Below are positions 75 to 21,220 of a stretch of 25,187 nucleotides of DNA, one piece after another. A program made the position numbers and the translations under genes. Under the pieces are notes generated by a model. That model searched no databases, had not been told where the DNA came from, and saw only the letters and a list, made by a program, of their open reading frames with translations. The stretch's first letter is position 1, and every line of letters starts with the position of its first letter. This DNA comes from a virus, in the IMG/VR virus record IMGVR_UViG_3300014838_000586, positions 1-25,187 of that record; one strand, written 5' to 3'.

Positions 75-240
75 GAAGGCCGCAGCTGCCAGCAAGACTG
101 ACCGGGTGCTGGATGCGCTTCAGGCCGCCCGCGCTAAGGGTGAGACCCCGACCGCCGCGTCGCTGGCTGAGCAGTGTGACGTCTCGCCCACCCTCGCCCG
201 GAACGTCGTGCGGGCTGCATCGAACGGGAAGGCAGCATGA
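1..240 (+). CDS. C-terminal fragment of a plasmid-type protein with a helix-turn-helix end
   Basis: Only the last 79 codons are present; the 5' part lies outside the window. The frame opens with two full copies and part of a third copy of a ten-residue Ser/Ala/Pro/Gln repeat (SSAPQPSAVV), a probable flexible linker. It then reads into a compact helical region resembling a winged helix-turn-helix (TDRVLDALQAARAKG, then SLAEQCDVSPTLARNVVRAA), a plausible DNA-binding domain. The stop codon overlaps the ATG of the FtsK-like gene (ATGA at 237-240), so the two are translationally coupled. Proteins with an N-terminal membrane or DUF2637-type region and a C-terminal HTH often precede FtsK/TraB genes on actinobacterial plasmids. 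That identity is inference, because the diagnostic N-terminus is missing. Confidence 0.7.
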   Translation, partial: SSAPQPSAVVSSAPQPSAVVSSAPQKAAAASKTDRVLDALQAARAKGETPTAASLAEQCDVSPTLARNVVRAASNGKAA

Positions 241-1997
241 GCACCCACGACCCGTCCATGATCATTGCCTTCGCGCACGGGCACCCGCAGCTGGCGCTCA
301 CCGGGCTCGCCATTGCTGCTGTCGGCGTGTTTGTGTGGGTGCTTGAGGAGAAGGCCAAGCGAGAGCACGTCACCGCCCGGGATCTGCTGAGTGCTGCTGC
401 CGCATTTCCTGCTGCTGCTGTTGCTGCCGGGCTGCTGTTCGCGCCAGCACTGATGTACAGGGTTGTGTGGATTGCTGCTGCTGTGCTGGCCGCGGTGAGT
501 GTGCTGCTGCTGGTGCTGACCGTCCGGCGCAGGCGGAGCAGCAGGGTGCACTACCGGCCGCTGCACGATGCTGTCGGTGCTGCTGCCGGGCACGACGGCG
601 ACTCCCCCCGGAAGTACCTGAAGGTGAGCCGGGACCTGTCCCAGACGACGGTGCGGATGACCCCCGCCGCCGCGGCCGACGCCAGCAGGGTGAAGCGTCT
701 CGTCCATGCGGTGCCGCAGGTGCTCCAGCTGGGTGAGCACGTTGTGGTGCAGGAGCTGCACGGGAACCACCCGCGCCTGGTGTTTCGGGCGTGCGGGCCG
801 AAAGAGTCCCTGCCGGTACTGCCCATCCGGGACATGATCCCGCGGCTGGCCCGGGTGGCGGGGCCGAAGCAGATCGCGCTGGGTGTTGAGGCGGAGGCCG
901 GGCTGATCGAGGTGGACTTCGCCCGCGTGGTGCACATGCTGATCAGCGCGATGACCGGCTCCGGGAAGTCGAACCTGACCACCTTCATCCTGATGCAGTT
1001 CCTGTTCAAGGGCGCGGTCGGCGTTGTGATCGACCCGACCGGGATGAGCTACCCGTGGGCGAAAGACCTGCCGAACGTGTTCTACGCCCGCGACGACGGT
1101 GATGTCCGCCGGGCCTGCCACTGGCTCGATGGGGAGCTGAAGCGCCGGGATGCGTTCGTGCGCGACCACAGCGACCTGTCCGGGTTCGTGGAAGGCGGGT
1201 TCGGGACGGACCTGATCGTCGTGGCGGATGAGAAGAACCTGATGGAGCGGCGGCTGAATCAGACGTGGGCCCTGAACGGGGGCAAGGGGTGCGATCCGGC
1301 GCTGCTTATCCTCAACGACGTGCACTACGCGGGCCGGAAGGTCGGCATTCACGCGCTGGTCCCGATGGTGCGCGGGGACGCGAAAGCTGCGGGCGGCGGA
1401 ACCGTGCGAGGGCAGGCGGGGCTGGTGGCGTTCGGGGCGAACCCGAAGCAGGCCGAGTGGGACATGTTTTTCCGTGGTGATCCGAAGCCGGAGTGCCGGG
1501 AAATCCCCGTGCCGGCCGGGCGGATGCAGGTGTGCTTCGGCGGTGCGGTGCACGAGATCCAGGTGCCGCACTGCCTGGAGGTTCCGAAGACCGGGGCCGA
1601 ACGGATTGCGGCGCTGGAGATGGCCACGACGGTGCGGGATTACGCGCTCTCCGGAACGGTGACTCCAGCGCCCGCTGAGCTTCTGGATGGTGAGGAGGAG
1701 TACGTCCAGTTCGGTGCTGAGCTGGAAGAACGCGACGAACCTACTCCTCATACTCAGGTTTCTCTGTCCGACGTGATCGCGGAGGAACTAACGGGCCTGG
1801 ACTTGAGGCAGCTCCAGAACGTCGCCGCCCGCGGCAAGTTCCCCGAGGTCGCCGGTAAGCGGGGCCGGGCCTACCTCTACGACCGCGAGCAGATTATCGC
1901 CTGGGAGCGCGAACGGACTGGCCAGCCTGAGCAGGCAGCCGGGGCCGGGCAGGTAGCCGACGTCATCCCGATCAACCGGAAGAGGGAAAACGCATGA
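237..1997 (+). CDS. FtsK/SpoIIIE-type (TraB-like) DNA translocase with C-terminal DNA-binding domain
   Basis: A 586-residue membrane ATPase likely to pump DNA during conjugative transfer. Hydrophobic segments at about residues 18-36 and 50-92 suggest two or three N-terminal membrane helices. The motor domain has a Walker A motif (MTGSGKSN, residues 239-246) and a Walker B-like strand ending in acidic residues (LIVVADE, 326-332). The C-terminus (about 516-563, LTGLDLRQLQNVAARG through YDREQIIAWERE) resembles a MerR/excisionase-type helix-turn-helix and could recognise a transfer site, as the C-terminal winged helix of Streptomyces TraB does. The start overlaps the upstream stop (ATGA) and the stop overlaps the next start (ATGA at 1994-1997), so it sits within an operon. 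The motor call is firm; the conjugation role rests on the neighbours. Confidence 0.88.
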   Translation: MSTHDPSMIIAFAHGHPQLALTGLAIAAVGVFVWVLEEKAKREHVTARDLLSAAAAFPAAAVAAGLLFAPALMYRVVWIAAAVLAAVSVLLLVLTVRRRRSSRVHYRPLHDAVGAAAGHDGDSPRKYLKVSRDLSQTTVRMTPAAAADASRVKRLVHAVPQVLQLGEHVVVQELHGNHPRLVFRACGPKESLPVLPIRDMIPRLARVAGPKQIALGVEAEAGLIEVDFARVVHMLISAMTGSGKSNLTTFILMQFLFKGAVGVVIDPTGMSYPWAKDLPNVFYARDDGDVRRACHWLDGELKRRDAFVRDHSDLSGFVEGGFGTDLIVVADEKNLMERRLNQTWALNGGKGCDPALLILNDVHYAGRKVGIHALVPMVRGDAKAAGGGTVRGQAGLVAFGANPKQAEWDMFFRGDPKPECREIPVPAGRMQVCFGGAVHEIQVPHCLEVPKTGAERIAALEMATTVRDYALSGTVTPAPAELLDGEEEYVQFGAELEERDEPTPHTQVSLSDVIAEELTGLDLRQLQNVAARGKFPEVAGKRGRAYLYDREQIIAWERERTGQPEQAAGAGQVADVIPINRKRENA

Positions 1998-4000
1998 TCC
2001 GCCGCCTTGCCGTGCTGATCGTAGCGGTCGTGCTCACGGTGCTGGCCACCAGCGGGATGGCGTTCGCGTCCACAGGCCACGCCACACGGCCCCACGTGGC
2101 CGCGGTCACCCCGATCACCTCCTGCAACCAGCTCGGGTTCCTGGGCCCGGACGCTCAGGCCGCCTGCAACCTGGGACCACCGTCGAACAGCGCGATCAGC
2201 GGCATTCTGCACGACCTCAACCCGGCCAACCTCATCAACGGCGCCAACAACACCTGCCAGCCGGGGGTGCCGATGCCGGAGTCCGCATCCGATTCCACCC
2301 TGCTCGCGCCCGCCCCGGTCCCGGCGGCTAACCGTACGCTCTGGTCGAGCTACGGCACCAGCGGCTTGTTCTGGGCGCCTTATAACCTTCAGTGCTCCGA
2401 GTGGGAAAACCTTCTCGGCAACGCCTGGGCGAATGGGATGTTCACCTCCGCGAAGGTGCTCACCTCGGTCACCCTCACCGTCGTGCATGCCGCGACCACA
2501 CCGGGGCTGCTGAACGGTATCCAGACGAAGATCGATGCGGCCATCGTCGCGGTCGGCCACAGTGCTGAGCAGTGGATGGTGGTCCTGATCATCCTGGGCG
2601 CCGGGTATATGGCCTGGGCGCTGGTCCGGCACCGGGCCCGTGAGGTACTCACCTCCGCGATGCACATGGTCATCTTCGCGGTGCCGCTGCTGCTGCTGGT
2701 CGCCATGCCACAGCTCTGGACTAGTATCCCCGCCAAGGTGGTCAGCGCCGCCACCCAGACGACCAGCGACATTTTCTCCACCATGCCCGCCGTCGGCAGC
2801 GCGAACGCCTGTGTGGCGACCAGCCCAGGTGACCCGCAGTCGGCCGGTGAGAAGCTGACCGTCAACGACCACGGTGCCGACGCGCTGTGGGGGTTCATGG
2901 CGTGCCGTCCGTGGCTGGCCGGGGAGTTCTCCGACCCGTCGCTTCAGGTCAAGTACGGCCGGGCGCTGCTGTGGTCCCAGTCGTTCGCAGTGGGCGAGCC
3001 GCAGACCACCGCCACCGCCAGCCTGAAGGCGCAGCTGTACGGCGGGATCGACAACGAGATCAACAAGAACAGCCCCGGCTCGGTGGGCCTGTTCGAGGGT
3101 AACCAGTATCAGGACCGGATGGCGGCAGCCGGGCTGGCCACCCTGATGGACCTGGTGCTGGCGATCGTGTTCATCGGCCTGGCGTGCATGCTGCTGTTCG
3201 CGCAGATCGGGTTCTATCTGCTGCTGGTCGCCGCCCCGGTGATCCTGCTAGTCGGCATGTACCCCGGCGAGGCCGGCCGCCGGTTCTGCTTCAAGTGGTA
3301 TGAGCGGATGCTGGGGCTGCTGGCGAAAATGGCGATCGGCACCGTGCTGCTCACCGGAATGCTGTGGGTGTTCGCGCTGCTGACCGGGCTGTCGTCGTCC
3401 TGGGTGATTCAGGGCATTCTGATCACTCTGGCCGGTGCGGCGCTGCTGGTGAAGCGGAAGAAAGTCGTCTCCGGTGCTGTCTCCGTCAAGGGCAGCATGG
3501 CCGCGAAGCTCACCGGAACAGCACCAGCACAGTCCAGCAGCACTGCCCCCCGGCGTGCTGAAGCCGGAGTGCTGGGTGCTGCTGCTGGCTACGAGGCCGC
3601 CCGCCACCACGCGGCCCGGCCGCCAGAGCAGAGCACCTTCCACAAGACGGTCAAGACTGGCCAGCACGTCGCAGCCGCCTACAGCACGGGGGGCCTGGCC
3701 GCTGCTGGTACCGCCGTCACCGGACTCGCGCACGGTCAGGTGCAGCGCCGCCGCGACGCCAAGCAGGCCGAGGCTGGCCAGCGTACCGCCGACGCAGCCG
3801 CGAAGGCACAGAACTGGCGGGAGAACCTGCCCGGCAAGGTGCACAGCAAGGCCGCCACTGAGCAGCTGCACGGCAACTTCCCGGCGCACAAGGCCGCACC
3901 GCCTGAGCAGCACCGCGACACGGTTGTCCACACCAGCTACCAGACCAGCCCGGCACAGCGGCCCGAAGTCCAGGACGTGCGGGAAGAGAAGTCGGCTTAA
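1994..4000 (+). CDS. VirB6/TrbL-like polytopic membrane protein of the transfer apparatus
   Basis: A 668-residue protein with a signal sequence (residues 1-25, basic MIRR then a hydrophobic run ending near AFA) and an exported region of about 170 residues. Hydrophobic helices follow near 194-215, 218-239, 376-425 (probably two) and 438-490 (two or three). The last 175 residues are basic, Ala/Gln-rich and low in complexity, a likely cytoplasmic tail. This layout matches actinobacterial VirB6/TrbL proteins, which form the inner-membrane channel of type IV secretion-like systems. There are no catalytic motifs to check, so the assignment rests on topology, length and position between an FtsK-like motor and a wall hydrolase. 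The stop (TAA, 3998-4000) shares one base with the next ATG. Confidence 0.75.
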   Translation: MIRRLAVLIVAVVLTVLATSGMAFASTGHATRPHVAAVTPITSCNQLGFLGPDAQAACNLGPPSNSAISGILHDLNPANLINGANNTCQPGVPMPESASDSTLLAPAPVPAANRTLWSSYGTSGLFWAPYNLQCSEWENLLGNAWANGMFTSAKVLTSVTLTVVHAATTPGLLNGIQTKIDAAIVAVGHSAEQWMVVLIILGAGYMAWALVRHRAREVLTSAMHMVIFAVPLLLLVAMPQLWTSIPAKVVSAATQTTSDIFSTMPAVGSANACVATSPGDPQSAGEKLTVNDHGADALWGFMACRPWLAGEFSDPSLQVKYGRALLWSQSFAVGEPQTTATASLKAQLYGGIDNEINKNSPGSVGLFEGNQYQDRMAAAGLATLMDLVLAIVFIGLACMLLFAQIGFYLLLVAAPVILLVGMYPGEAGRRFCFKWYERMLGLLAKMAIGTVLLTGMLWVFALLTGLSSSWVIQGILITLAGAALLVKRKKVVSGAVSVKGSMAAKLTGTAPAQSSSTAPRRAEAGVLGAAAGYEAARHHAARPPEQSTFHKTVKTGQHVAAAYSTGGLAAAGTAVTGLAHGQVQRRRDAKQAEAGQRTADAAAKAQNWRENLPGKVHSKAATEQLHGNFPAHKAAPPEQHRDTVVHTSYQTSPAQRPEVQDVREEKSA

Positions 4001-5064
4001 TGAAAACGGTCGTCGCTATCGCGGCAGTGCTGGCGGCAGTGTTCCTGCTGCCGATGGTGGCGGTCATGTTCACCGGGGCGCCGCCGCCGTTTGCCCGCGG
4101 CGGTAACGGCTGCCAGCCATCCACGAGCACCACCACCTCGGTGACCGGCGCGACCACCCAGGGCAGCGGCGCCCTGCCCGCCAACTGGGCTGCGATCACC
4201 AGCTTCCTGACCTCCCACAGCTACAGCAAGAACGCCGCGGCTGGGATCGCCGGGAACGTGCAGGCTGAGTCCGGCGGGAACCCGGAGGAGCTTCAGATCG
4301 GCGGTGGGGGCGGTACCGGGATCATCCAGTGGACTCCGGCCAGTTCCGCCGCCCCGCTCCAGCCGATCATCACCGGGAACGTCAGCGCTGACCTGGCCAC
4401 CCAGCTGACCGACCTGCTCACCTACAACAGCGCTAAGCAGGCTAGCGGTCTGGCCAGTATCGCCGCGCTTAACGCGGAGCCGACCGCCGCGGTGGCCGCT
4501 GCCTACTACGAATCAGCGTTCGAGCACCCGGCCAGCCTGGCTGACGCGCCGCTCCGGTCCGCGAATGCGAACGCTGTGCTGACGGCCATGACCAAAGGCG
4601 GCGGGAACGGCGGGGTGACCACAGCGAGCGTCGTCACCAAGTGCACCGGGACGAAGACCACCACGACCGGCGACGTCGCCCCGCTGGCCACCGGCAAGGC
4701 CGCCGTCGCTATCGCCTACGCGAAGCAGCAGCTCGGTAAGCCGTACGTGTGGGGCGGCACCGGGCCGGACGGGTTCGACTGCTCGGGCCTGGTGATGGAA
4801 GCGTGGCAGGCAGCGGGCGTGAACATCCCCCGGACGTCGGAGGCGCAGTACGCCGCGCTCCCGCACATCACCGCAGCTCAGGCTCAGCCGGGCGACCTTA
4901 TCTTCTACGCGGGCTCCGACGGCACCATGACCGCCCCGGGCCACGTGGTGATGTACCTGGGCGGCGGCCTCGTCATCCAGGCGTACACGACCGGCACCCC
5001 AATCGAGATCAGCACGCTGGCCTTCATGGGACCCAGCCAGCTCGTCGGATACGCGAGGCCCTGA
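4000..5064 (+). CDS. Membrane-anchored two-domain peptidoglycan hydrolase (tail-lysozyme-like + NlpC/P60)
   Basis: 354 residues, likely acting in the cell wall to open a path for the transfer channel. An N-terminal signal anchor (about 1-27) leads to a Thr/Ser-rich stretch. Residues about 63-200 resemble the phage tail lysozyme fold (SYSKNAAAGIAGNVQAESGG, then GTGIIQWTP), with Glu90 the likely catalytic acid. Residues about 230-354 form an NlpC/P60 endopeptidase with Cys261 in DCSG, His315 in GHVVMY, and the family's YVWGG and PRTSEAQ segments. The muramidase-plus-NlpC/P60 pairing is known from conjugative elements of Gram-positive bacteria (VirB1-like proteins such as Tn916 Orf14). Start and stop overlap the neighbours by one base each. 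Confidence 0.88.
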   Translation: MKTVVAIAAVLAAVFLLPMVAVMFTGAPPPFARGGNGCQPSTSTTTSVTGATTQGSGALPANWAAITSFLTSHSYSKNAAAGIAGNVQAESGGNPEELQIGGGGGTGIIQWTPASSAAPLQPIITGNVSADLATQLTDLLTYNSAKQASGLASIAALNAEPTAAVAAAYYESAFEHPASLADAPLRSANANAVLTAMTKGGGNGGVTTASVVTKCTGTKTTTTGDVAPLATGKAAVAIAYAKQQLGKPYVWGGTGPDGFDCSGLVMEAWQAAGVNIPRTSEAQYAALPHITAAQAQPGDLIFYAGSDGTMTAPGHVVMYLGGGLVIQAYTTGTPIEISTLAFMGPSQLVGYARP

Positions 5065-5255
5065 TGTATGTACTGGTTCTGACCGGCCCGGACTGCGAGG
5101 AGTACCCCGGGCACGAGTGCGTTATAGACGTCATAGAGGTGGAAAGCCGCGCGCAGGCGAAGGAAGCCGCCGGGAAGCTCAGGCAGGAAGGTCTGTGCGC
5201 GCACTTCGGGGCCACCCGTCCGCTGACCGACTACGTGGAGGAAGACCCGTTCTGA
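5064..5255 (+). CDS. Small hypothetical protein (63 aa)
   Basis: A 63-residue acidic protein starting MYVLVLTGPDCEEYPGHE and ending YVEEDPF. The ATG overlaps the stop of the hydrolase gene (TGATG at 5062-5066), and its own TGA overlaps the next ATG in the same way (5253-5257). The same frame stays open further upstream, but that part is a shadow of the hydrolase. The coupled ATG and the amphipathic, non-repetitive product support a real gene. No family is recognised. The predicted pattern is a beta strand, a helix (ESRAQAKEAAGKLRQEG) and a short strand. Confidence 0.65.
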   Translation: MYVLVLTGPDCEEYPGHECVIDVIEVESRAQAKEAAGKLRQEGLCAHFGATRPLTDYVEEDPF

Positions 5256-5722
5256 TGTATGAGCTGGCCTTCTTCGTCATCGTCGCCGCGGTGATGCTGG
5301 CCCGGACTGGCGTGCTGGTGCCACCGCGATGGCGGGCCCGGTACCGGCACTGGGAGAGGCGGCCATTCTTCTGGGCCAGGGCGGGCCGTCAGTACGCCAG
5401 GTCGGCGCGGATCAGCGAGCGGCAGCGGAAGATCGTGCAGGCGGCCGACCGGCACCGCTGCATCATGCGGGACGGGTCATGCGCGGGTTCGCTTCAGGTG
5501 GACCACGGAAGACCCTGGTCATGTGGCGGGCGAACGTGGGTGTTCAACCTGTTCCTGCTCTGCCGGTACCACAACGTGACGATCAAGAGCAACTACTGGC
5601 CTGGAAGCTATTACCGCGGCAGCAACATCGTCCTGGCCGCGGCCATACTCCGGCGGGAGCAGCATGCGCGGTGGAACCCGTTCCGGTGGCTGCGGGCGGG
5701 CCTTACCTCGACGGTGCGTTAG
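5255..5722 (+). CDS. HNH endonuclease with N-terminal membrane anchor
   Basis: 155 residues. Residues 5-22 are hydrophobic (LAFFVIVAAVMLA) and look like a single membrane anchor, followed by a basic stretch. The nuclease part has Cys69 and Cys76 (CIMRDGSC), the catalytic-type VDH with His84, Asn98, and Cys103/His106 (LCRYHN), a zinc-bound beta-beta-alpha-metal HNH arrangement. The ATG at 5255 overlaps the stop of the 63-residue gene, which fixes the start. An upstream extension in the same frame is rejected because it lies over the neighbour. It is the last gene of the plus-strand operon, and its TAG overlaps the stop of the convergent phage gene. Membrane anchoring is unusual for HNH enzymes and would suit processing of DNA at the transfer channel (inference). 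Confidence 0.8.
   Translation: MYELAFFVIVAAVMLARTGVLVPPRWRARYRHWERRPFFWARAGRQYARSARISERQRKIVQAADRHRCIMRDGSCAGSLQVDHGRPWSCGGRTWVFNLFLLCRYHNVTIKSNYWPGSYYRGSNIVLAAAILRREQHARWNPFRWLRAGLTSTVR
5719..5722. other. Convergent stop codons sharing four bases
   Basis: The plus-strand HNH gene ends with TAG at 5720-5722 and the minus-strand tail gene ends with TAA at 5721-5719, so both stops lie within TTAG. There is no room for a terminator between the operons, and I see no strong hairpin with a T-run within about 50 bases on either side. Confidence 0.9.
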
Positions 5723-6300: not shown

Positions 6301-7068
6301 CTACATTCCGAAGATAGCCGGATTGGCCAGGTTGACCGCGGCCCCGGCGTCGTGTGCTTTAACGATCCCATTCACGGACCTGACGACGGTGAACGTCTGC
6401 TGGACGGGCGACGCGATGCTCGGCTGGGCGAAAGACAGCACCACGAACCCGGTCTCAAACGTGCCGGCCTGCGCCGAGGTAATCGTCGGGTTGCTGGTGG
6501 GCCCCAGGTATTCAGACAGCCCGATGCAGCTGGACTGCGTGCCGCCAGGTGCCCCCTGTGCGTTAGACCCGATCGGCGGGATGATCGTGGTCCAGCCCGG
6601 CGGGAGGTTCTCCGAGTGCTGACCCGACGTGATGCCGGTGGCACCGTCGTCCAGTGCTCCCGCGAACAGCAGAACCGGCTGTGTGCTGGTCACGTTTGCC
6701 GGAAAGGCCGGTGTGCAGGTGTTAACGGGGGGACCGATCTGAGCAAATGAGCTGGCGGAGATCGTCGCGGGTGGGTATGCGGCTACGACGACTTCGGCCA
6801 TGCACGCGGCGCTGAACGGCACCGTGTAGGTGGACTCGTAGGTGGTGGCGACCTTGTAGAAGACGCCGAACGCGCTGCCGCCTGGAGACAGCGCGGTCCA
6901 GCCGGCCGGAGCTGTGGGGACAACGGCGTAAGGGTTGGCCACCCCGCCGAACGCGCACATGAACAGCAGGCCGCCGCTAATGAACATGGGCGGGGGCGTG
7001 ACGGAAACCGTTGCCGCGGGATTGCCGGACGGCGTGACCCCGAAGCTGTAGGACAGGCCGCTAGTCAT
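6301..7068 (-). CDS. Phage tail tip/fibre protein, beta-sandwich type
   Basis: 255 residues, rich in Gly, Ala, Pro, Ser and Thr, with alternating hydrophobic strands and regularly spaced Trp residues (APAGWTALSPGG, LPPGWTTIIPP), as in stacked beta-sandwich domains. The C-terminus (QQTFTVVRSVNGIVKAHDAG, then VNLANPAIFGM) matches a motif that ends many actinophage minor tail proteins as I recall them. The ATG overlaps the stop of the peptidase-like gene by 8 bases, so it is co-translated in the operon. The region around residues 5-110 resembles the N-terminal domain of the 1304-residue tip protein in composition and spacing, so the two may share a domain family. A receptor-binding or structural role is inferred. 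Confidence 0.65.
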   Translation of the reverse strand: MTSGLSYSFGVTPSGNPAATVSVTPPPMFISGGLLFMCAFGGVANPYAVVPTAPAGWTALSPGGSAFGVFYKVATTYESTYTVPFSAACMAEVVVAAYPPATISASSFAQIGPPVNTCTPAFPANVTSTQPVLLFAGALDDGATGITSGQHSENLPPGWTTIIPPIGSNAQGAPGGTQSSCIGLSEYLGPTSNPTITSAQAGTFETGFVVLSFAQPSIASPVQQTFTVVRSVNGIVKAHDAGAAVNLANPAIFGM

Positions 7069-7767: not shown

Positions 7768-10725
7768 CTACGGTATCTGGGCGATCCAGACGCCCGCATA
7801 GGCGCCGGACGTGGCATCGGATTCGGACAGGGCGTACCAGGTCAGGCCGCTCGAATCAGCCAGGCTCATCACTATCTGGCCGGCCGGCAGGTAATTCGAG
7901 TTACAGCAGACGGTGGCGACCAGAAGCGTGCCGGAGGGCGGCTTAACCGGGAAGTAGGCCGTCTGCTGGACCGCGCCGCCCGGGTACGCCGAGGCCAGCG
8001 AAGCGACGGCGGTGGTGACGGCCTCAACCACGATGTTCCCGGCGGTGGCCAGTACCTCGCCCAGCGCGATATTAACTCGCGTATTAGAGGGGGCGGTACC
8101 GCCGTAATAGGTCGCTACTCCTGTAAATGGCGAGGAGGCCGAATTGAACGTGCCGTAGCCAGCTCCGTTGATCGTGTCGTTCACGTTCTGGCTGAATACG
8201 GTGTTGCTGTTTGGCGTGTAAGTGGTTCCCGGAATCCAGTCCATCAGTGCGCCGCTTATCCGGGACCCGGAGCTGTTCGGGGTGATGCCGAGGTGCGGTA
8301 CCGACGACGAACCGGCCGAGTAGGAGGCGTTGTGGGCACCGAGAGCGATGACGTTGGCTGCTGGCGCAGCGCCGGAAAGCGCCTCTACCGTCAGCGCCAT
8401 CCCGATGGTGGGCGCGCCTGCGTAGTTGGTGCTGCCGGTGATGCCCGCCACCCCGCCGCTGGCCGTGGCGGTTATGGCGAGGGTGCTCACCGCCGTCGCC
8501 GTCACTACCCCGGTGCCGCCCACCGCCGCCGAGATGGAGGTGACCGTCATCTGCTCCCCGTCGGCAACGATGTCGAACGGGAACTCCGCGGCTGAGGTAG
8601 TCCACGTGGGGGCCGTGGGCACGGTGGGGCTTACCGCGAAGGACGTCATGGCCGTGTCGATGGCGGTGAGCAGGCCCGAGCCGTCCGTGTCCGCCCGGGA
8701 ATACGTCGGGTCTTCGAACACAGCGGTCTGATACGGGCGCCCCGGTACGCAGTTGAAGCTGATCGTGTAAACGAATGTGTTCAGGCTGATGGTGAAGCCG
8801 AGCGCGAGCTGATTGATGGCGCCGGGCGGCAGGAAGGCGGGCGGGTTGCTGATCTGGATCAGGTCTCCTGGGCCCACCTGCTGGACCTGGGAGAAGATCT
8901 CCGCCACCTCAGACCGGCTCAGGTCCACGTTGAGGACCGGGTAGCGCAGGCCGTCCTGGGTGCCCAGCCACAGCAGCCACGCCGCCGTGTCGTTGAGCCG
9001 TTCCCCATCGAACGCGCTGTAGACCGTCTCCGACACCGGGTAGTCCCCCACCCCGTTTGGCGGCAGGTTGACCGACATGTTCCCGGAGGCCAGTTCCAGG
9101 TGCGCGGAGCTGCCGCCGTTCCTGGTCACGGTGACGTCGTTCTTGGTGTGCTGGTCGTCGTCGGTCGGCTGAAGCGGCGTGGCCAGGGCGGCTGAGGCGT
9201 AGTTGAGCACCGCGGCGGCCTGCTGGTTACTCAGGTCCACCCTGGTCCGGTAGCCGAGACCGAAGTTGCCGGTGGGCTCGTACATGATGCCCATGTCCAC
9301 CGCGACGCACTGCTGGAGCAGCGTGAGCAGCGTGACCCCGGCGACCTGGGCGCCCATCTGCTCGGTGTCGGTGTCCGTGCCCATCAGCTCGGCGTAGACG
9401 CCCTCCTCACCGCACAGCCGGAGGAACCGGTCCGCGGCCAGCTCCCCGGCGTACGCCGCCAGCACCGGGATCAGGTCGTAGATGTTGGTGTAGGCGTACT
9501 GGACGGCGATGTGCCCGATCGCGGTGTCGTTGATGGGCGCGTTGCCGCTGGCGTTGGTGATGATCTCGGTGATCTGGCCGACGATCCCAGACGAGTAAAC
9601 CCCGGATATACCCGGCAGCTCGGTTCCGTCGAGGTTAATGGCGTTGAGCCCCCACGCGATGCTGTTGCCGGGGTACTGCTGAAGCTCCATGCTGACCAGG
9701 ATCGGCTGCCCGTTCACGTGCCAGCTGGCCAGCCCGGTGGTGAACAGCTGAACGCCCTGGGTCCAGCCGCTCATGGTCAGGTCGCCGCCAGTGGTGTAGA
9801 ACAGGTCGAGGTTGCCCACCTTGCCGCTGGTGTAGACCCGCATAATCACCGAGTCGGTCGGCATTTCCGTGCTGGGCACCGACAGCAGGAACCGGACGAT
9901 GTTGGCCGCAGCCGACCCGTCAGCCGACTTGTACGAGACGGTTATTCTGCCCGCGCCGCCCGCACCGCCGGACGCACCCGATCCACCGCCCCCGCCCCCG
10001 CCGGGAGAGCTGCCCGCCGTCCCCGCGTACCCGACCGGGTTGACGACCGGCGGCGGTGCGACGGTAATAACCCCGGTCAGGGATAGCGCCTCGAACTGTG
10101 CGACGGTGGCCGCCACGGAGGTGGGGTCTTCCAGCCCCGGATAACTGCCCTGGAACGCGGAGAAGTCCACCGGGCTGGCGCCGCCGAAGCTGTTGCTGTC
10201 GGAATACTGCCAGACCGTCGGGGTCATCCCGCCGTACGGCTGCCACCCGGCTCCGGTGGTCGCGTCGGTGTAGGTGGTGAAGTTGCTGCTCCACAGCAGC
10301 ATGCCGCGGCCGATCAGGCTGGTGAGGGCGGGTGAGCCCCAGTCCTGCCAGTACCAGTTGGGCAGATACAGCCAGTAGAGGATTCCGCCGTGCGCCCGGT
10401 AGGCGTCGATGAATGCGGTGACGTCCGCGAGCGTCGGGCTGGACCCCGTGGTGGTTTCCACGTCCAGCATCAGCGGCGTCGAGCCCACCACGCTGTAGCA
10501 GTACGCCGCCTGTGAGGAGATCGGCGCCCCGCCGGACCCAGCGCTGCTGTGCAGGAAGTGGTAGGCGACGAAGTAGGCGCCTGCGCTCGCGGCCCCGGAC
10601 TTGAACGTGCTGTAGTACGGGTTGGTGTAGTTGTTACTCTCGGTGGCTTTCCCGATGACCGCCAGCGCGCCGGTAAGGCTGATGCCCGCCTGGCCGCTGC
10701 TGATGTCGGGGAAGTAGATGGTCAC
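7768..10725 (-). CDS. Tail hub C-terminal half fused to an N-terminal GH25 lysozyme domain
   Basis: 985 residues. Residues 1-200 resemble GH25 muramidase: YFPDISSG at the start, TESNNYTNP, YHFLHSS, and LMLDVETTTG with Asp88 and Glu90 as the DxE pair. A Pro linker and a glycine-rich piece (about 231-266, ending GRITVSY) follow. Residues 274-405 look like the second half of a LamG-like sandwich (VRFLLSVPSTEMPTD). Residues 405-695 match the C-terminal part of the actinophage tail hub (Tal-like) protein (AYAGELAADRFLRL, DDDQHTKNDVTVTRNGGSSA, YSRADTDGS). A further beta-domain (EFPFDIVADGEQMTVTSI) and a 240-residue C-terminal region complete it. The start is GTG with AGGTGA 6 bases upstream. Its missing N-terminal half is in the gene upstream. 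Confidence 0.8.
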   Translation of the reverse strand: MTIYFPDISSGQAGISLTGALAVIGKATESNNYTNPYYSTFKSGAASAGAYFVAYHFLHSSAGSGGAPISSQAAYCYSVVGSTPLMLDVETTTGSSPTLADVTAFIDAYRAHGGILYWLYLPNWYWQDWGSPALTSLIGRGMLLWSSNFTTYTDATTGAGWQPYGGMTPTVWQYSDSNSFGGASPVDFSAFQGSYPGLEDPTSVAATVAQFEALSLTGVITVAPPPVVNPVGYAGTAGSSPGGGGGGGSGASGGAGGAGRITVSYKSADGSAAANIVRFLLSVPSTEMPTDSVIMRVYTSGKVGNLDLFYTTGGDLTMSGWTQGVQLFTTGLASWHVNGQPILVSMELQQYPGNSIAWGLNAINLDGTELPGISGVYSSGIVGQITEIITNASGNAPINDTAIGHIAVQYAYTNIYDLIPVLAAYAGELAADRFLRLCGEEGVYAELMGTDTDTEQMGAQVAGVTLLTLLQQCVAVDMGIMYEPTGNFGLGYRTRVDLSNQQAAAVLNYASAALATPLQPTDDDQHTKNDVTVTRNGGSSAHLELASGNMSVNLPPNGVGDYPVSETVYSAFDGERLNDTAAWLLWLGTQDGLRYPVLNVDLSRSEVAEIFSQVQQVGPGDLIQISNPPAFLPPGAINQLALGFTISLNTFVYTISFNCVPGRPYQTAVFEDPTYSRADTDGSGLLTAIDTAMTSFAVSPTVPTAPTWTTSAAEFPFDIVADGEQMTVTSISAAVGGTGVVTATAVSTLAITATASGGVAGITGSTNYAGAPTIGMALTVEALSGAAPAANVIALGAHNASYSAGSSSVPHLGITPNSSGSRISGALMDWIPGTTYTPNSNTVFSQNVNDTINGAGYGTFNSASSPFTGVATYYGGTAPSNTRVNIALGEVLATAGNIVVEAVTTAVASLASAYPGGAVQQTAYFPVKPPSGTLLVATVCCNSNYLPAGQIVMSLADSSGLTWYALSESDATSGAYAGVWIAQIP

Positions 10726-10731
10726 AGAGAG

Positions 10732-13700
10732 TCACCTAATGTACGTGAATTGGAGTTGCGGCGGGTTGATCATTTCAGCCCCGGCGAAGTAACCGTAGTT
10801 GTACTGGCTGTCCACGGCCTTGTACAGGAGCAGGCAGGTGGCGGATGACTGGAACCAGCTGCCCACGCTGGTGATGTTGTGAGAGAGCAGCTGGCCCTGG
10901 TTGATCCACCACTCTTCCTGATCCTCAGTGACGCTCCCGATCGGCGAGGTCGAGCCGAAGCTGGTGATGGTGCCCCAGCCGAGCGTGACGTACATGCCGG
11001 TGGGGTAGTAGCTGCCCAGATTTTGCAGCACCAGGTTCACGTTTGTGATGGCGGCCCCGGCCAGGTCGGACTGGATCTGGCCGTAGTCGAACACCAGGTA
11101 GCTGAAAATGTTGCCGTTGCTGTCATTGGCGTCGCCCTGGTAGACGTACCCGGCCGGGTTGCTGACCAGGTTCCCGTAGCCGTTGTAGGAGTACGTCGCG
11201 GTGGCGCTGTAATAACTGATGTGCGTGGACTTGGCGACCGACGAGGCGCCGCCCGGCCCGCCTGAACCACCGCCGGAGACGACGCCCCCGATGCCCGCGG
11301 AAGTGGCTCCGGAGCCGCCCGCCTTACCGCCCTGGGACGGCCCGCCAGAGCTGCCGCCGCCGCCGCCCGCGTTACCAGGAGCCCCGCCCGCGCCGCCTGG
11401 GTAGAAGATGGGATCGGCGCTGGACACCCCACCCGGGATGCCGCCCGCGATGCTGGTGCCGCCCGTGCCGCTGGGCGCGATCAGGGTGCCGAATATGGCC
11501 GCCCCCGCCGAACCGCCCGGCCCGCTGGTGCCGCCAGCCCCCGGTGCGGGAATCGACCAGTTGACCGGGTTTCCGGGCGTGAATTGGTAGCCGGGTGCGG
11601 AAACGAAGGCGCCACCCGCACCACCGCCCCAGGAGCTTGACGACGAGCCGCCACCACCGTCGCCTGGAGCCCACATGTCCACCGTGCCCGAGGTGGTGCC
11701 TGCTGGCGGGGTGAAAGAGCCTGATCCGGTGGTGTAGGTGACCGAAGCGTTAGTTATGCTGGCCGACCCGAGCTTGGCCTCGCTGATACGCCCGGTCCAG
11801 CTGGAGTTGGACAGCAGCGGGATAGCCATCGACGCGGAGAAGGAGGTGTTGCTGGCCAGCGTCGGGGTGCCGTTGATGAACATCGGCTGGCCGTTGATAC
11901 CGGAAGCCAGGTTGGTGGACCCGGCCAGGTCCTCGCACGGCCAGTAGGCAGCCGGGGCGAGCGTCCCGCTCAGGGAGGTCCAGTAGCGAAGCAGCGCCGA
12001 TCCGAGGGTGCCGCCCTGGCTGAGCCTGCGCAGGATGCCGGAGGCGGTGATGGAGGCGTAGACGTCCGTACCGGTCGGGTCCCACGAGGGCGGCCACTCC
12101 GACACCTCGCCCCAGAACACAGCGACCCGCGGCGACCCCTGGACGGTGGTGGTCTGCACGGAGACCCGCAGCTGGCTGTTCCGGCTGATCTGGCCGTAGT
12201 AGGCACCCAGCGGGTTGCGCAGGGTGAACCGGCCGTCCCGGTTGTTGAGGGTGAGCGCGCAGGTGGACGGGTTGGGCGCCGTCGCCTCGTCGGGCTGGCC
12301 GCTGGTGATCTGGATGTTGTTCCGGGAGTAGACATACGCCGTGATGTCCGCCCACACGTTGGCGCTGGTGAAAAAGGCTGCCCGGGACAGTGCCACCGGG
12401 AAGTTGCGCGCGGCTACAGTGTCCGGGTCGAGCAGCCCCGAGGTGGCGTCCTCCCAGTAGGCGCTCATATAGCATGCCGGGCCGCCCTGCCCGTAGGACG
12501 TGTTCGCCAGGATCAGCGAGGCCATCTGGTAGATGTAGTACGGATCGTCGCCGCCGCCGATGTAGCTGCCGCCGGTCTTCCAGGTGACCAGCCCCCACTC
12601 GGGGAAGCTGAACGGGACACCAGCCGCGGCTCCGGTGGTGACGAACGCTGTCCAGGATTCGATGCCGTCCTGAATCGTCTCCAGGTAGTTCCAGTTGGCC
12701 TCCTGCTGGGCGATGGTCCGGGTGAACGGCGGCGGGGTGACGGACGGGTAATCGCCCCAGTCGTAGAGGTCCAGCCCGATCGAGTCCACGTACGCGGTGC
12801 CGGGGAACCAGTTCTGCACCTCTGCGCCGCCCGTGCTGAACGGGCCCAGGATCGGGTTCCAGCAGAAGACGAAGTTAGCACCGGGCAGCCCGCGCAGCAG
12901 CGTGACGATGTGCTGCCAGCCCGCCACGTACTGGGCGACGGTATCCCCGGTGGTGGTGGGCGACCAGTGGTACCAGTTTCCGTTGAACTCCCGGCCGATC
13001 CTGATCATGGATGACCCGAAGCCGTTTTCGATCAGGTAGCTGCCCAGCGCAGTCCAGTGCGCGTCGTTGGTGCCCGCGGCCTCTGCCGCCCAGGTGGCGC
13101 CTCCCGAGCCGGCCGATACCCCCGCACACGCTGGCAGGGACAGGCACAGCCGCCGTCCTCCCGCCACCGCGGCCGACCAGATGCCTGCCTGGATGGAAGT
13201 GGTGACGTACGCGCCCTCAAACTGAGCCCAGGTGGTGGGGGCGTCCAGCACGTAGTCGAGCACGAAGTCCATCTGCCTGTTGCACGCTGTCTCGTACGCC
13301 TCGACGTTGCCCAGCGCGGTGGCCGGTGTCGGGCTCGTCACCACGGTGCCGTCCGGGTTTTCGGTGCCGCCGTTGCCCCGGTACACGCCGATCAGCGGCA
13401 GCGCCAATCCGGTCACCGGGTCGTTCTTGTTGCCGAACATGCAGCCGTTGCCCAGGCTCAGCTCCACCGTGATGCCCAGCCCCGTCTCCGGGAACGGCGC
13501 AGGAGGCGGGGGTGGAAGCGCCACCGCACCGGCCGGGACGCCGGCCCCGCCCGCAGTACCGGTCTGTGCCGCAGCACCAAGCCGTGCCGAGCTGGTGCCG
13601 CCGAAGATACTGCCGATCCCGCCCGCAGCACCGGCTTGTGCCGCGGCGCCTGGGAGGGGGAATGACCCGGCGCCGGTATTACCGCCATAGACGTCGCCGT

Positions 13701-16057: not shown

Positions 16058-19000
16058 CTAGCGGCCCAAGACGGACTGCACGTTGCCGCCCCTGATGCGG
16101 ATGTTCTTGCGTATGAAAGCGAGCAGCTCGTCGCCGCCGCTGGTGCCCGTCCACTCGATTTGCAGAGTGCCGCCGCCGCCGGATTGCCCCGGTGCGAGGA
16201 CCTGCTCCGGTCGGCCCGTGTTGTTGACCGCGACGCTCGTGCCGGTGGGCAGCCAGCCACCACTGTCGTAGCCCCTGTAGGTGCCGCTTACCAGCCCGGG
16301 GATGTTCCACGGCGCGCCGTACTGGCTAGCGATATACCGGATACCAGCAACCGCATCGGATACCGGGTTGGTCATACCGCCAGGGACGGTGGCGAACTCC
16401 GCGTAAGTGCCCGCCATCGTCTGAAACAGCCCGGTCGCACCCGATGCGTTCTTGGCGTTCGGGTTGCCGCCAGACTCTTTGGATACCAGAATTTCCAGGT
16501 CGGGCAGCCAGGACGCCGGTTCGCCCGCGTCTTTCAGCGCCTGGGTTATCCAGGACACCACGCTGCCCGATACGCCGGGCACACTACCGCTGGAGAACCC
16601 GCTGGGAGGGATACCCATCGACGTTAGCGGCATGCCGTGCAAGCCCATCAGCGTGGGACCCATGCCGCCACCCTGGCTGATAACTGTGTTGGCGTCCTGG
16701 ATGATGGCGACGTGACCGGGAGTTGGGCCGCCAGCTGGGCTGTAGTAGAACGCAAGGCCGCCCGCCTCGGGGCTGCTGGTGTTTTTCACCCAGGCGCTCT
16801 GGGCTTCGGATGTCCGCGGCGGGTTATACCCGAAGTGCCTGTAGACGGAGCCGGTGAATCCGGAACAGTCTGCGCCGGCCGAACTGAGCGAAGTACCGCC
16901 CCAGACATAAGGAATTTTCCCTAGGAAAGAGAGGGCGTAGGACACAATGTCGCCTCCGCTGCCGATAGCGGACTGTGCGGCGATTTCCGCCTTTTGCATG
17001 GCCAGCGCCAGGGAACGCTCAAGCGAATCCCCGAAAACGTTGAACATCCGCTGCGGCGCGTCGGGGTTAGTGCCGTACACGCTACTGGCGGGCACCGACC
17101 CAGATAGCACACCACCACCCGAGAACGCCATCCCGCTTGAGCGCCTGCCGCCGGAGTGCGCCTTGTTCAGGGCTAGCACTGTGGCCGGCCCGATCGCACG
17201 GACCGCCTCGGGGACCAGGATGCCCTCACCCGGCGACAACGCGGCGAGCACCGTATCCTGACCCGGTGCGTACCCAGGCAGCACGCCGCCCGCGGCCCCG
17301 CCGGGCAGGAAGTTACCGTTCGGGCCGATACTTCCCGACACGACGGGCGTATTAATCGTATAGGTACCGGCGCCGACCATGGTGAGCCGGGCGGCGTACG
17401 GGCTGCCCGCGGCGACTTGATGCAGTGAGCCCCACAGCTTATCGGCGGCTGTCTTAGTAAGACCCAGCTGTCCCGCCAGCCGCTCGAACTGGCCCCTGGT
17501 CTCTCCCGCCTTGGTACCGGCCTCATCGAGCTTCTGCTGAACGAACATGTCCCACAGCTGGTGCGCCTGACTGGTTGTAAGATTCAGGCCGTTCATTGCC
17601 AGCGCGATAAACTGGCCTTCCGCGCCCCCCGCCTTCTTTGCCATGATGTCCAGGTTTTGCTGGCTGAACATGTTCCACAAAGTTTGCGCCTGGCCGGTTG
17701 TAAGATTCAGGCCGCCCTTTGCCAGGTCTACGAACTTGCCCATTGCCACAGCTGCCTGGTTGCCGGTCTGGTCCAGCGCGGGAATGCCCTTATTCAGGAC
17801 GTCCTGCCACAGTGCGTCGGCCTGGGTCTTGGTGAGCCCCAGCCCGCCGACGGCAAACGACTCAAACTGGGTCTTAGCCTGCGGGACGTTATTCAGGGAC
17901 AAGGCCAGGAACTCGTCGCCCAGTTTGATGGCCGCGTTCTTAGTCGTAGTGCTGCTGGCGCCTGTCTGAACAACCGCATTAGCGAAGTCGTCAAACGGCT
18001 TGGTGCCACCGCGGGCCAGCTGGATCGCAGCCGCCTCAGCCCCGGTTAGCCCTGAGCCAAGCGCGAGGGACAGGTTCTGCACGTCAGTGGTCAGGTTCCC
18101 GGCCGACTTGGCCAGCTGATCTGTGTTGCCCTGGAGCTGGCTGGTGGGATTCTTGGCCGCGCTAATCGAACCGCTGGCCGTAGTCACCCACGAGGAAAGC
18201 GCCTTGAAGCTGTCTGCTCCGTGGTAACCGCCCTGCTGGGCCAGCGCGTACAGGATGGTGGTGAAGTCGCTGCTGCCCTTCGACGCCGGGAGCAGCTCCG
18301 CCACCATGTCCTTGACCGAGGAAGTCACCAGGTCGGTGCCCTTACTGCCATCACCGCCCGCAGCCGAGAGCGTCATCAGGTTGTCGGCCTGTGTTTGTGC
18401 TGCCTGCGCGGCAGATATAAAGGCTGCCTGGGCGTTCAGGGAGGCGGTATTGACCCCGTTCATGCTGGTAGCACCCGCAGCCGCCCCGGAGGACAGTGAC
18501 TTGAACGAGATGCTGGCCTTGCCGTTACTGACGGACAGGGTTGCGGCACCGGCCCCGAGCGACTGATACAGCCCAGATGTCTGCTGGAGGAAACCGACGA
18601 GCCCGGAGGCGCCGCCCGAAACGATCTTGAAGAAGTTATCCCAGGCACCCGTGACCGCCGAGATCTTACTGTCCTGCAACTCAGTCTGGAATGTGACCGC
18701 GTTAACAGAGTTAGCGAGGATGCCCGCCTGGACGCCCAGGGCCTGGTAGCCGGTGATGAGGTTATCGACTTTTTGCCTGGCGATATCGTAGGTGTCGTTA
18801 GCTTTTACCCCGGCCAGGTCTTCGATAGCGAGCGCCTGCGCCATGGTGTAATGCTGGGCAACCAGAGTCCCGGCAACCCTGAAAAGAGTCCCCTCTTCGT
18901 CAATTAGCTTGCTGATCTCACCGTCGAGCGCCTTCATGTTGTTGGCGATTGCTACGGTTGCGCCTGACGACGGGGTAACTAGGTCCTTAAACGCCTGGCC

Positions 19001-21220
19001 CAGGTGACCGAGGCCGCTTATCATTTCGGAAGGGGTTTTTGAAGCCAGGCTGCCAAAGAACAGCCCGAACTGGTGCCCCGATGCTTGCAGCTGATCGTCC
19101 AGCGTAGTAAAGGCTCCACCCCAGCTGCTCAGCTCTTTATTAAACTGGGCAATCCCCTGCGCTCCCGAGGCTGCCTGCACCTTCTGGTCGAGCTGGCCGA
19201 CGGAGCTGGCTATATCCAGGATCGCTGAAGACGCGCTGTCGTTGTTTATCTTGTTCTCGATGCCCGCGATAAAGCTGCGGGTTGCGCTGTCGGCCTTCCC
19301 CATGTTGGTGGCCAGCAGTACAAGTGCGACAGCAGCCGCCGCCACCCAGAACAGCGGGTTTGCAGGCAGCGCCAGCAGGGCGAGCGTCATGCCCGTTATG
19401 CCGTTGGCAACGCTGATGAGTATCGGGACGAGGAACGAACCCCACACGTACAGGCCGTGGAGGGCAAGCGTCCCTTCTACGATCGGCGCGGGCAGCTCGC
19501 TGAACAGCTCCAGCAGCTTGGCGACACCACCGATAATGTCGAGGAGGTAGTGGGCGATCCCTGGGTCCTTGGTCATCAGGTCCCCGAGGGCCACGCCGAC
19601 GGTACCGAGAATCTTCCCGAACTGGGAGAGGTAGCCGATGCCCGCTTCCAGGAACTTGGTGAAACCCTGACCAGACGCCCAGGCGTCTATCTTGGCGATC
19701 CAGTCGTCAAACAGGTTAACGACCTGGTGAGCGATAGCGCCCAGGCTGCTCAGCTTGTTACCGGCCAGGTTCAGAGCACCGCCGTAAGCCTCCACCGTCT
19801 GCGGGGCCATCGACTCTCCGAGGGCGTCAAACTGCTGATCAAGTTTCGGCAGCACAGTGCTGTTCAACGAGGAGCCGACATCGTTGACCGCGGTTAGGTG
19901 GTCGTAAATATTATTAACGGCGGGTGCCATTGACGCGGCGCCGAGGGCTGCCGCGGCTGTAGCCAGGCCCACCGAGATGAGCGCTTCGATAACCCCGTCC
20001 AGGGCCACATGCCAGAGCGCGACCGACTTGACCGTGAGACCCAGGATCGGGATCGTGGCCGACAGCCCGCCCATCCACCCGCCGGTCGCGGCAGTCACAC
20101 CGAGTATTCCGCCGCCGCCCCCAGACCCCGCAGCGGCGTCGGCGTTACTCCTCAGGTTTGCGAGGCCCGCAGCCGTTTGACCGAGCAGAACAAAGGGGGC
20201 CGCCAGCGAGTTTTTCAGGGACGCGAATGCAGACGCCAGCCCGCTAACCGAGTCGTCGTCCTGGCCGGAAACGTCACCAAGACTTGTGAGCGCGGCAGTC
20301 ACCGCGTCCATCCGGGCGGAATCAGTGCCTGACGCGCTGCCGAGGCTGATGAGGTCAGCGATTAGGTTTTCTACCCGCTGGGACGCGAAACCCATCGTCC
20401 CGTCTGCTTCAACAGCTGAGGCTTTCAGCTTGTCCAGGGCGGCGGCTACGACGTCTATCCGTGCGGCGTCATCCCCCGTGCCGACGGTGATGTTAACGCT
20501 CTCGTTGGCCTTTTTTACCCCGTCGCTTATCCCCCGGAGGGCGTTGCTCAGGGAAGCCGGGTCAACCACCGTATCGATGAAGTCGGTGGTGGTGGCGTTC
20601 TCCGGCCCCTTGCCCATCAGTTTCTGCAAGATGGTGTCGGTGGTGGTGGTGTTCTTCGGGCCCTCACCCGCCAGGCTCTGCAAGATGGTGTCAGTAGTGG
20701 TCTGGTTGTGGGCGCCCTGACCGGCCAGCTTCTGCAAAATGGTCTGCTGGGCGATGTCCATGGCCTGCGGCCCCTGATCCTGCTTCAGAACCTTGGCCAG
20801 GCCGACGAGCAGCGCATCGGACGCCGCCGTATTGGCGGTGGCTACCGGCGCAGCCCCGCCGCCCAGAGACTTCTCTGTTCCGGCCAGCAGGCCAACGTCG
20901 CCTTTAGACAGGATGTTGCGGAGCATGTTACGCAGCGTGGCGTCGTTACCGGTGCCGAGGATGCCGATACCACCCGGCTGCGTCGCTTCGGATTCCAGCT
21001 TCCGGAGCAAAGCAGGGTCGGTACCGATCAGCCCAGCAGTACCTGCCGTTGCCGCCACCGCCGGGTGTATCCCGCCCGCCTCATTGCTGGCCTGACCGTG
21101 GGCCGCGGCATCGAACGCAGCCGCGTACGCCTTCCCCGCTTCGGCCCCTGCCTTAGCGGCGTCGGCCTTAGCCCGGTCCAGACCCGAATTGTCACTGGTG
21201 GTGCGGATGACAATTTCCAC
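16058..21220 (-). CDS. Tape measure protein with NlpC/P60 and lytic transglycosylase domains
   Basis: 1720 residues, the longest gene here; it sets tail length and is expected to help DNA pass the envelope. The N-terminal half is Ala-rich and helical with long hydrophobic stretches in the middle (ISVANGITGMTLALLALPAN, FWVAAAAVALVLLATN). It contains three 18-residue repeats near residues 160-214 and about four 41-44-residue repeats near 1118-1267. Residues 1418-1530 are NlpC/P60 (YVWGGTS, Cys1452 in DCSGF, His1503 in PGHVAI). Residues 1555-1640 resemble a lytic transglycosylase (SKESGGNPNAKNASGATGLF, Glu1582). The GTG at 21220 is 21 bases from the only good Shine-Dalgarno; an in-frame ATC at 21232 is better placed and may be the true start, adding four residues. 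Confidence 0.9.
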   Translation of the reverse strand: MEIVIRTTSDNSGLDRAKADAAKAGAEAGKAYAAAFDAAAHGQASNEAGGIHPAVAATAGTAGLIGTDPALLRKLESEATQPGGIGILGTGNDATLRNMLRNILSKGDVGLLAGTEKSLGGGAAPVATANTAASDALLVGLAKVLKQDQGPQAMDIAQQTILQKLAGQGAHNQTTTDTILQSLAGEGPKNTTTTDTILQKLMGKGPENATTTDFIDTVVDPASLSNALRGISDGVKKANESVNITVGTGDDAARIDVVAAALDKLKASAVEADGTMGFASQRVENLIADLISLGSASGTDSARMDAVTAALTSLGDVSGQDDDSVSGLASAFASLKNSLAAPFVLLGQTAAGLANLRSNADAAAGSGGGGGILGVTAATGGWMGGLSATIPILGLTVKSVALWHVALDGVIEALISVGLATAAAALGAASMAPAVNNIYDHLTAVNDVGSSLNSTVLPKLDQQFDALGESMAPQTVEAYGGALNLAGNKLSSLGAIAHQVVNLFDDWIAKIDAWASGQGFTKFLEAGIGYLSQFGKILGTVGVALGDLMTKDPGIAHYLLDIIGGVAKLLELFSELPAPIVEGTLALHGLYVWGSFLVPILISVANGITGMTLALLALPANPLFWVAAAAVALVLLATNMGKADSATRSFIAGIENKINNDSASSAILDIASSVGQLDQKVQAASGAQGIAQFNKELSSWGGAFTTLDDQLQASGHQFGLFFGSLASKTPSEMISGLGHLGQAFKDLVTPSSGATVAIANNMKALDGEISKLIDEEGTLFRVAGTLVAQHYTMAQALAIEDLAGVKANDTYDIARQKVDNLITGYQALGVQAGILANSVNAVTFQTELQDSKISAVTGAWDNFFKIVSGGASGLVGFLQQTSGLYQSLGAGAATLSVSNGKASISFKSLSSGAAAGATSMNGVNTASLNAQAAFISAAQAAQTQADNLMTLSAAGGDGSKGTDLVTSSVKDMVAELLPASKGSSDFTTILYALAQQGGYHGADSFKALSSWVTTASGSISAAKNPTSQLQGNTDQLAKSAGNLTTDVQNLSLALGSGLTGAEAAAIQLARGGTKPFDDFANAVVQTGASSTTTKNAAIKLGDEFLALSLNNVPQAKTQFESFAVGGLGLTKTQADALWQDVLNKGIPALDQTGNQAAVAMGKFVDLAKGGLNLTTGQAQTLWNMFSQQNLDIMAKKAGGAEGQFIALAMNGLNLTTSQAHQLWDMFVQQKLDEAGTKAGETRGQFERLAGQLGLTKTAADKLWGSLHQVAAGSPYAARLTMVGAGTYTINTPVVSGSIGPNGNFLPGGAAGGVLPGYAPGQDTVLAALSPGEGILVPEAVRAIGPATVLALNKAHSGGRRSSGMAFSGGGVLSGSVPASSVYGTNPDAPQRMFNVFGDSLERSLALAMQKAEIAAQSAIGSGGDIVSYALSFLGKIPYVWGGTSLSSAGADCSGFTGSVYRHFGYNPPRTSEAQSAWVKNTSSPEAGGLAFYYSPAGGPTPGHVAIIQDANTVISQGGGMGPTLMGLHGMPLTSMGIPPSGFSSGSVPGVSGSVVSWITQALKDAGEPASWLPDLEILVSKESGGNPNAKNASGATGLFQTMAGTYAEFATVPGGMTNPVSDAVAGIRYIASQYGAPWNIPGLVSGTYRGYDSGGWLPTGTSVAVNNTGRPEQVLAPGQSGGGGTLQIEWTGTSGGDELLAFIRKNIRIRGGNVQSVLGR
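17418..17866 (-). repeat. Tape measure 41-44-residue repeats (about four units)
   Basis: Units start at about 17866, 17734, 17611 and 17488 on the minus strand. Each begins with F..LA..GL.LT..QA..LW, for example FVDLAKGGLNLTTGQAQTLW and FIALAMNGLNLTTSQAHQLW. The two middle units are exactly 41 residues; the first is 44 and the last is cut short. Periodic helical repeats are typical of tape measure proteins, where added or lost units alter tail length. Confidence 0.85.
20579..20740 (-). repeat. Tape measure 54-nt tandem repeat (three 18-residue units)
   Basis: Three units start at 20740, 20686 and 20632 with no gap. They encode ILQKLAGQGAHNQTTTDT, ILQSLAGEGPKNTTTTDT and ILQKLMGKGPENATTTDF. 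The DNA is also similar between units, so this is a fairly recent duplication. Confidence 0.9.

Follow-up and report, generated by a model that had tools for sequence, protein, structure and literature searches.

The window analyzed here is the whole of IMG/VR record IMGVR_UViG_3300014838_000586, a linear, incomplete metagenomic fragment of 25,187 bases. Its tail genes lie on the minus strand in the order tape measure (16058-21220, with NlpC/P60 and SLT domains), P0003 (GH16), P0002 (10732-14646), P0001 (7768-10725), P0005 (7061-7759), and P0006 (6301-7068); all features below are on this strand unless stated. A tail hub, spread over P0002, P0001, and P0006 (chains 1, 2, and 3), follows the tape measure gene with P0003 intervening as one extra gene. 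Chain 1 consists of a β-rich N terminus, a GH26 domain, the hub N-part, the first part of a LamG-like domain, the body of a Gly-rich domain, and a C-terminal module. Chain 2 runs from a GH25 domain through the last Gly-rich strand, the rest of the LamG-like domain, the hub C-part, and the start of a barrel to a β-rich C-terminal module. Chain 3 joins an N-terminal β-rich module, P6N (6418-7068), to the end of the hub barrel (6304-6399). P0005, located as a gene of its own between those for chains 2 and 3, encodes a predicted eqolisin-like peptidase A4 (PF01828, 55.1 bits; cut-off 22.3).

L190, the closest relative identified, encodes its hub as a single chain (ORF 8716-11799, start at 8761). 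BLASTP aligned P0002 residues 736-1135 with L190 hub residues 44-482, and P0001 residues 232-759 with residues 483-1009. The two chains abut at L190 residues 482|483 with zero residues missing, in searches run without composition correction and without the low-complexity filter. With default statistics, P0001 694-732 matched L190 hub residues 953-991 (44% identical), and P0006 224-255 matched residues 997-1028 (53% identical). Because these matches succeed one another on the L190 hub, P0002, P0001, and P0006 tile one relative end to end. The single-chain PHROG family phrog_5313 (1052 positions) likewise recognized all three chains at successive profile positions: P0002 834-957 at 431-555 (E = 1.1e-45), P0001 355-750 at 649-1028 (E = 6.8e-94), and P0006 221-254 at 1018-1051 (E = 3.3e-07). 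A profile from seven Streptomyces phage hubs gave the same picture.

On a hub core profile of 603 positions, P0002 occupied 10-210 and P0001 205-603. The former match covers the hub N-part and the first LamG-like strands (P0002 757-959; 11770-12378) and the latter the LamG-like rest and the hub C-domains (P0001 about 272-670; 8716-9912). The first half of the C-terminal barrel (EFPFDI...TSIS; P0001 694-732; 8530-8646) was assigned from its L190 match. Conserved residues are kept in both P0002 and P0001, and the conserved parts missing in one are present in the other. A sequence-only reading of this DNA had put the N-terminal half of a hub at the end of P0002 and the C-terminal half in the next gene, citing LNNRDGRFT and AYWPCED in P0002 and VRFLLSVP, DDDQHTKNDVTVTR, and EFPFDI in P0001. 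All of these motifs were located as claimed, the phrog_5313 and L190 tiling bears the placement out, and the proposed alignment to single-chain hubs ran continuously, interrupted just at the junction. Used as a query against solved structures, the hub C-part found no match by sequence search, and fold comparison alone worked; an NCBIfam search returned no useful match.

The first break interrupts the final loop of the Gly-rich domain, which is itself set in a loop of the LamG-like sandwich. The Gly-rich body (P0002 960-1136) is at 11239-11769, and its end (GYAGTAGSSPGGGG...GGAGRITVSY), which aligns from L190 residue 483 onward, is at 9912-10032 together with the return to the LamG-like sandwich. 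A Gly-rich/LamG-loop profile from eight single-chain relatives (267 positions) was matched by P0002 at 2-211 and by P0001 at 210-266. These pieces are exact complements, and when joined they align across the junction without loss. The Pfam family PF21722 (Gly_rich_2) had no match in either piece alone, and the joined sequence scored 15.8 bits over 2-226 of 226 positions, with a curated cut-off of 24.3; the relative L135 scored 68 bits. The complementary profile matches support the earlier view that the LamG-like domain is cut midway and that the Gly-rich domain inserted there is cut as well.

Between the two Gly-rich pieces lies an insert of 1206 bp (10033-11238), a multiple of three by codon arithmetic from the L190 alignment residues and within 3 bases of the sequence-only estimate (about 1.2 kb, 11235-10032). 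It begins with the C-terminal module of chain 1, ending in TGA, which is followed after six bases by GTG and GH25; the extra material had been described in these terms, and the sequence and PF01183 agree. The C-terminal module (10732-11238, including the TGA stop) is Tyr/Asn-rich and β-rich, and its GC content is 0.598 versus 0.67-0.74 in the flanks. The module is shared with gp34 of the Streptomyces tectivirus Forthebois (L005, 3959-4420), to whose C terminus it is 32.9% identical in a match that runs to the last residues of both proteins. The similarity points to exchange of a tail-tip module across unrelated virus realms. Pfam holds no family for this module, for P6N, or for the chain 2 C-terminal module P1C.

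The second part of the insert, from chain 2 residue 1, is a predicted GH25 lysozyme domain (10126-10725; PF01183, 52 bits, cut-off 27, profile 18-179 of 180), with a DxE motif seen by eye at D88/E90 of P0001. Module and chain boundaries thus fall together: the C-terminal module stops where gp34 stops, and GH25 begins at residue 1. The TGA of chain 1, known from one assembly, overlaps a Shine-Dalgarno-like AGGTGA (10732-10737) that lies 6 nt before the chain 2 GTG in the same frame. This AGGTGA would be the putative ribosome binding site of chain 2, and the overlap, six bases ahead of GTG, makes a separate chain 2 start plausible. GH26 occupies chain 1 residues about 384-745 (12412-13497, boundaries approximate); the Pfam match at residues 549-630 is a partial one (PF02156, 26.2 bits, cut-off 20.2, profile 156-232 of 311). 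With GH26 near the chain 1 N terminus and GH25 at the chain 2 N terminus, each of these two chains has its own predicted glycosidase, as proposed earlier. Neither P0001 by itself nor the C-terminal module, used as queries against viral_contigs, recovered a relative that shares this break. The break showed no inverted repeat, and Pfam scans revealed no intein-like family that could be its cause.

P0006, downstream of P0001, ends with the final 32 hub residues (224-255; 62 bits with a hub tail profile), which places a second cut in a C-terminal barrel loop. As the hub end is on P0006 and P0001 matches the L190 hub only up to residue 991, the hub consists of three chains, not two. The earlier proposal of one hub turned into two chains therefore holds for the P0002/P0001 split but misses the third chain. 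With the tail profile, the hub tail was found within the hub chain in 175 related loci, in another ORF in four loci besides the window (L034, L149, L114, and L129), and not at all in five, four of them at contig ends.

The modules at this second break have counterparts in L190. P1C (7771-8496) is 53% identical to residues 269-509 of the ORF of an L190 accessory tail protein, P6N (P0006 1-217) shows 51% identity to the same L190 protein, and the L190 homologue of P0005 is 57% identical. In L190 (2583-8764), A4 is followed by P6N-P1C as one protein, all upstream of the hub, whereas the window has hub-P1C, A4, and P6N-hub end, so that the order is circularly permuted with the barrel loop as the pivot. 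Such an order would follow from recombination via a circular or tandem intermediate.

The hub core is on one chain in 226 related loci, about 199 of them distinct. The same LamG loop carries an insertion in eleven distinct loci of the tree (L014, L135, L190, L191, L192, L194, L195, L196, L197, L208, and L212), all Gly-rich and all unbroken; in L014, L194, L195, and L196, the Gly-rich domain itself encloses another one. L199, truncated by the end of its contig and outside this count, also has an unbroken Gly-rich insertion in this loop. The window groups with the eleven loci in a 23-tip clade with a support of 0.999. Given these unbroken clade mates and the lossless junction, the break is derived and sits in the last Gly-rich loop. 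Homologues with both proteins complete, named beforehand as evidence against a split hub, were not found, the 226 loci being single-chain and the Gly-rich relatives of the clade unbroken. L206 (3809-7429) and L072 (5178-9284) accommodate large enzyme-like domains in loops of a hub chain that remains whole, so that a break is not required; the inserted stretch of L072 had no match in Pfam.

We modeled the contiguous frame with AF2, reading TGA as W (P0002 757-1304, three codons, and P0001 1-649), with an alignment of 32 sequences from single-chain relatives. The pLDDT was mostly near 90 at model residues 1-200 and 820-1200, which are the hub parts, and below 50 in the insert, for which there was no alignment. 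The best hub comparison, with 8fqc_C1, gave a Z score of 18.1 (rmsd 3.9, 289 aligned residues, range 1-1200), and the hub domains of this read-through model are predicted to adopt a gp27-like arrangement. LamG-like sandwiches matched with Z of about 16-17 over 138-975, and the match to the 5hon domain, with Z of 15.8 (rmsd 3.2, 184 aligned, range 138-971), spans both chains. The jelly-roll sandwich of the model would therefore take strands from both chains, in line with the interlocking chains suggested by the sequence-only reading. One read-through chain and a single-chain alignment favor a shared fold from the start, so the model speaks for compatibility rather than for assembly. The unbroken control L135 showed the same topology with its elements in order (Z of 20.0 to 3d37_B, 296 aligned).

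Single-chain actinophage hubs of phrog_5313, such as Vondra gp18, Dubu gp16, phiSASD1 gp38, and Chymera gp18, share the hub domains and their order with the window, as well as the LamG-like insertion, the C-terminal barrel, and the position adjoining the tape measure gene. Unlike the window hub, they are one polypeptide, their middle LamG has no Gly-rich domain, and they have no GH25 or GH26. The gp27-like hubs of Mu (gp44), MuSo2 (43-kDa protein), Milano (C1), and the S. coelicolor CIS matched 289-294 residues from both window chains with Z of 17-18 at an identity of 10-15%; in contrast to the window hub, they are single chains without insertions.

Broken hubs also occur in other phages, a recurrence absent from the sequence-only reading. 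In the Thermobifida phage P1312 (P1312_021/P1312_022; L002, 6357-11617), its near copies L181-L183, and L185 (5307-8789), the hub is encoded by two genes, with the break near core position 435 and a PhoD-like domain (PF09423 in L185) at the start of the second chain; the P1312 protein is annotated as a "phosphodiesterase." P1312 and L185 resemble the window in having two adjacent genes, a loop break, and an enzyme-first second chain, but the loop is another one, LamG is intact in chain 1, chain 1 has no C-terminal module, and the C-terminal barrel is unbroken. In L149 (6048-10313) and L034 (3272-7269), chain 2 begins with a poly-γ-glutamate hydrolase(-like) domain (PF05908, Gamma_PGA_hydro, from L149) and carries the hub tail. 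A LamG-like sandwich is cut in a loop there too, although it is the one inserted in the C-terminal barrel and not the middle LamG. L114 (6261-9733) is broken at the same barrel-insert loop without an insert, and L129 (5643-10336) has the barrel tail in a second ORF, with an extra gene between. Hub breaks thus appear, from these loci, to be rare, with 226 loci unbroken, but recurrent, and those of P1312/L185 and L149/L034 appear to be independent. L140 (4390-4480) resembled another case of the LamG split seen in the window but was rejected; it has a perfect 21-bp inverted repeat and has lost hub residues, and its break is likely an assembly artefact. We found no report of split tail hubs in the open-licence literature, which is weak evidence of novelty.

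Taken together, P0002, P0001, and P0006 very probably represent one ancestral gp27-like hub that was opened twice and whose chains would fold together, displaying their modules. The ancestor would have made the hub as one polypeptide, as about 200 relatives (viruses and prophages) still do, and a surface loop of its LamG-like sandwich would have acquired a Gly-rich domain. The 1206 bp, bringing a C-terminal module, stop, ribosome binding site, start, and GH25, would then have entered the last Gly-rich loop in frame, and the opening of a C-terminal barrel loop would have moved the last strands to a third gene. Each opened loop would provide two free chain ends, each with an accessory module. 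We infer that the separate chains, made from one operon, assemble into one normal hub, folding co-translationally or soon after. Gp27-like hubs are trimers at the end of the tail tube, and by analogy the assembled hub is probably a trimer as well. GH26, GH25, and the binding-type β-rich modules would be shown around the tail tip, where they may degrade envelope or extracellular polymers at adsorption. A module in an intact chain is held by both ends and in a broken chain by one, so that larger or movable enzymes may be tolerable.

Other explanations account for parts of these data. Programmed read-through, in which the TGA is partly read to yield small amounts of an uninterrupted hub containing a CBM-like/GH25 insert, would fit the shared frame on both sides, the mere CTC TCT between TGA and GTG, the C after TGA, and an insert length that keeps the frame; L206 and L072 show that single chains of relatives do accept large domains. 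Against this, AGGTGA and the start sit exactly at the beginning of the GH25 domain, chain 1 stops at the natural domain end marked by the gp34 match, and the breaks in P1312, L034, and L114 change the frame, so read-through is not a general solution. We therefore regard it as improbable.

Even less credit is due to decay or mis-assembly, in which the living phage would have an intact hub and the break would reflect a mutation or an assembly error. The L140 artefact is a precedent, but the window hub lacks no residues and has no such repeat at the break, complete foreign modules stand on both sides, and the operon has a second break of the same style. An equally slim chance attaches to the halves having become independent proteins, one serving as a hub with another gene's help and the other as a fiber or tail-bound lysin. 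The fold complementation of the chains is deduced rather than seen, and lambda-like tails have multi-chain hub regions with distinct proteins, three of them in lambda (PMC13033339). Nevertheless, the conserved parts are complementary between the halves, which both keep their conserved residues, and no second hub gene was seen in the 25-kb record, incomplete as it is.

Beyond the reading of P0002, P0001, and P0006 as one opened hub, we give roughly even odds to a broader proposal, that hub-loop opening is a recurrent route by which actinobacterial phage tails gain enzymes, with the cut falling in a loop of an inserted domain, the separately translated chains re-forming the hub, and the new ends acting as free docking points for modules. 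In the window, two openings would have led to a three-chain hub whose sandwich and Gly-rich domain are each completed by another chain's strand. The tail hub is the conserved gate of DNA delivery, and its chain is expected to be whole; here, it is cut twice in nested domains with no hub residue lost. If the chains assemble in this way, this would be natural fragment complementation in a virion and would explain how tail tips accrete enzymes, suggesting a way for phages to gain parts that attack the host while the tail machine is left undisturbed. It also implies that hub genes may be missed or misread as fiber or lysin genes, as the filing of P1312_022 illustrates.

The remainder of the window holds several further genes. 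A glycosyltransferase-like gene (phrog_34859; 23947-24582, minus strand) lies within the tail gene cluster. Facing the tail operon, a single plus-strand run at 237-5064 resembles a conjugation module, encoding an FtsK/HerA-like ATPase, a TrbL/VirB6-like membrane protein (a weak assignment, under the Pfam cut-off), and a protein with NlpC/P60 and phage lysozyme domains. Between the two convergent gene blocks is an HNH endonuclease-like ORF (5117-5722, plus strand) with weak PHROG matches.
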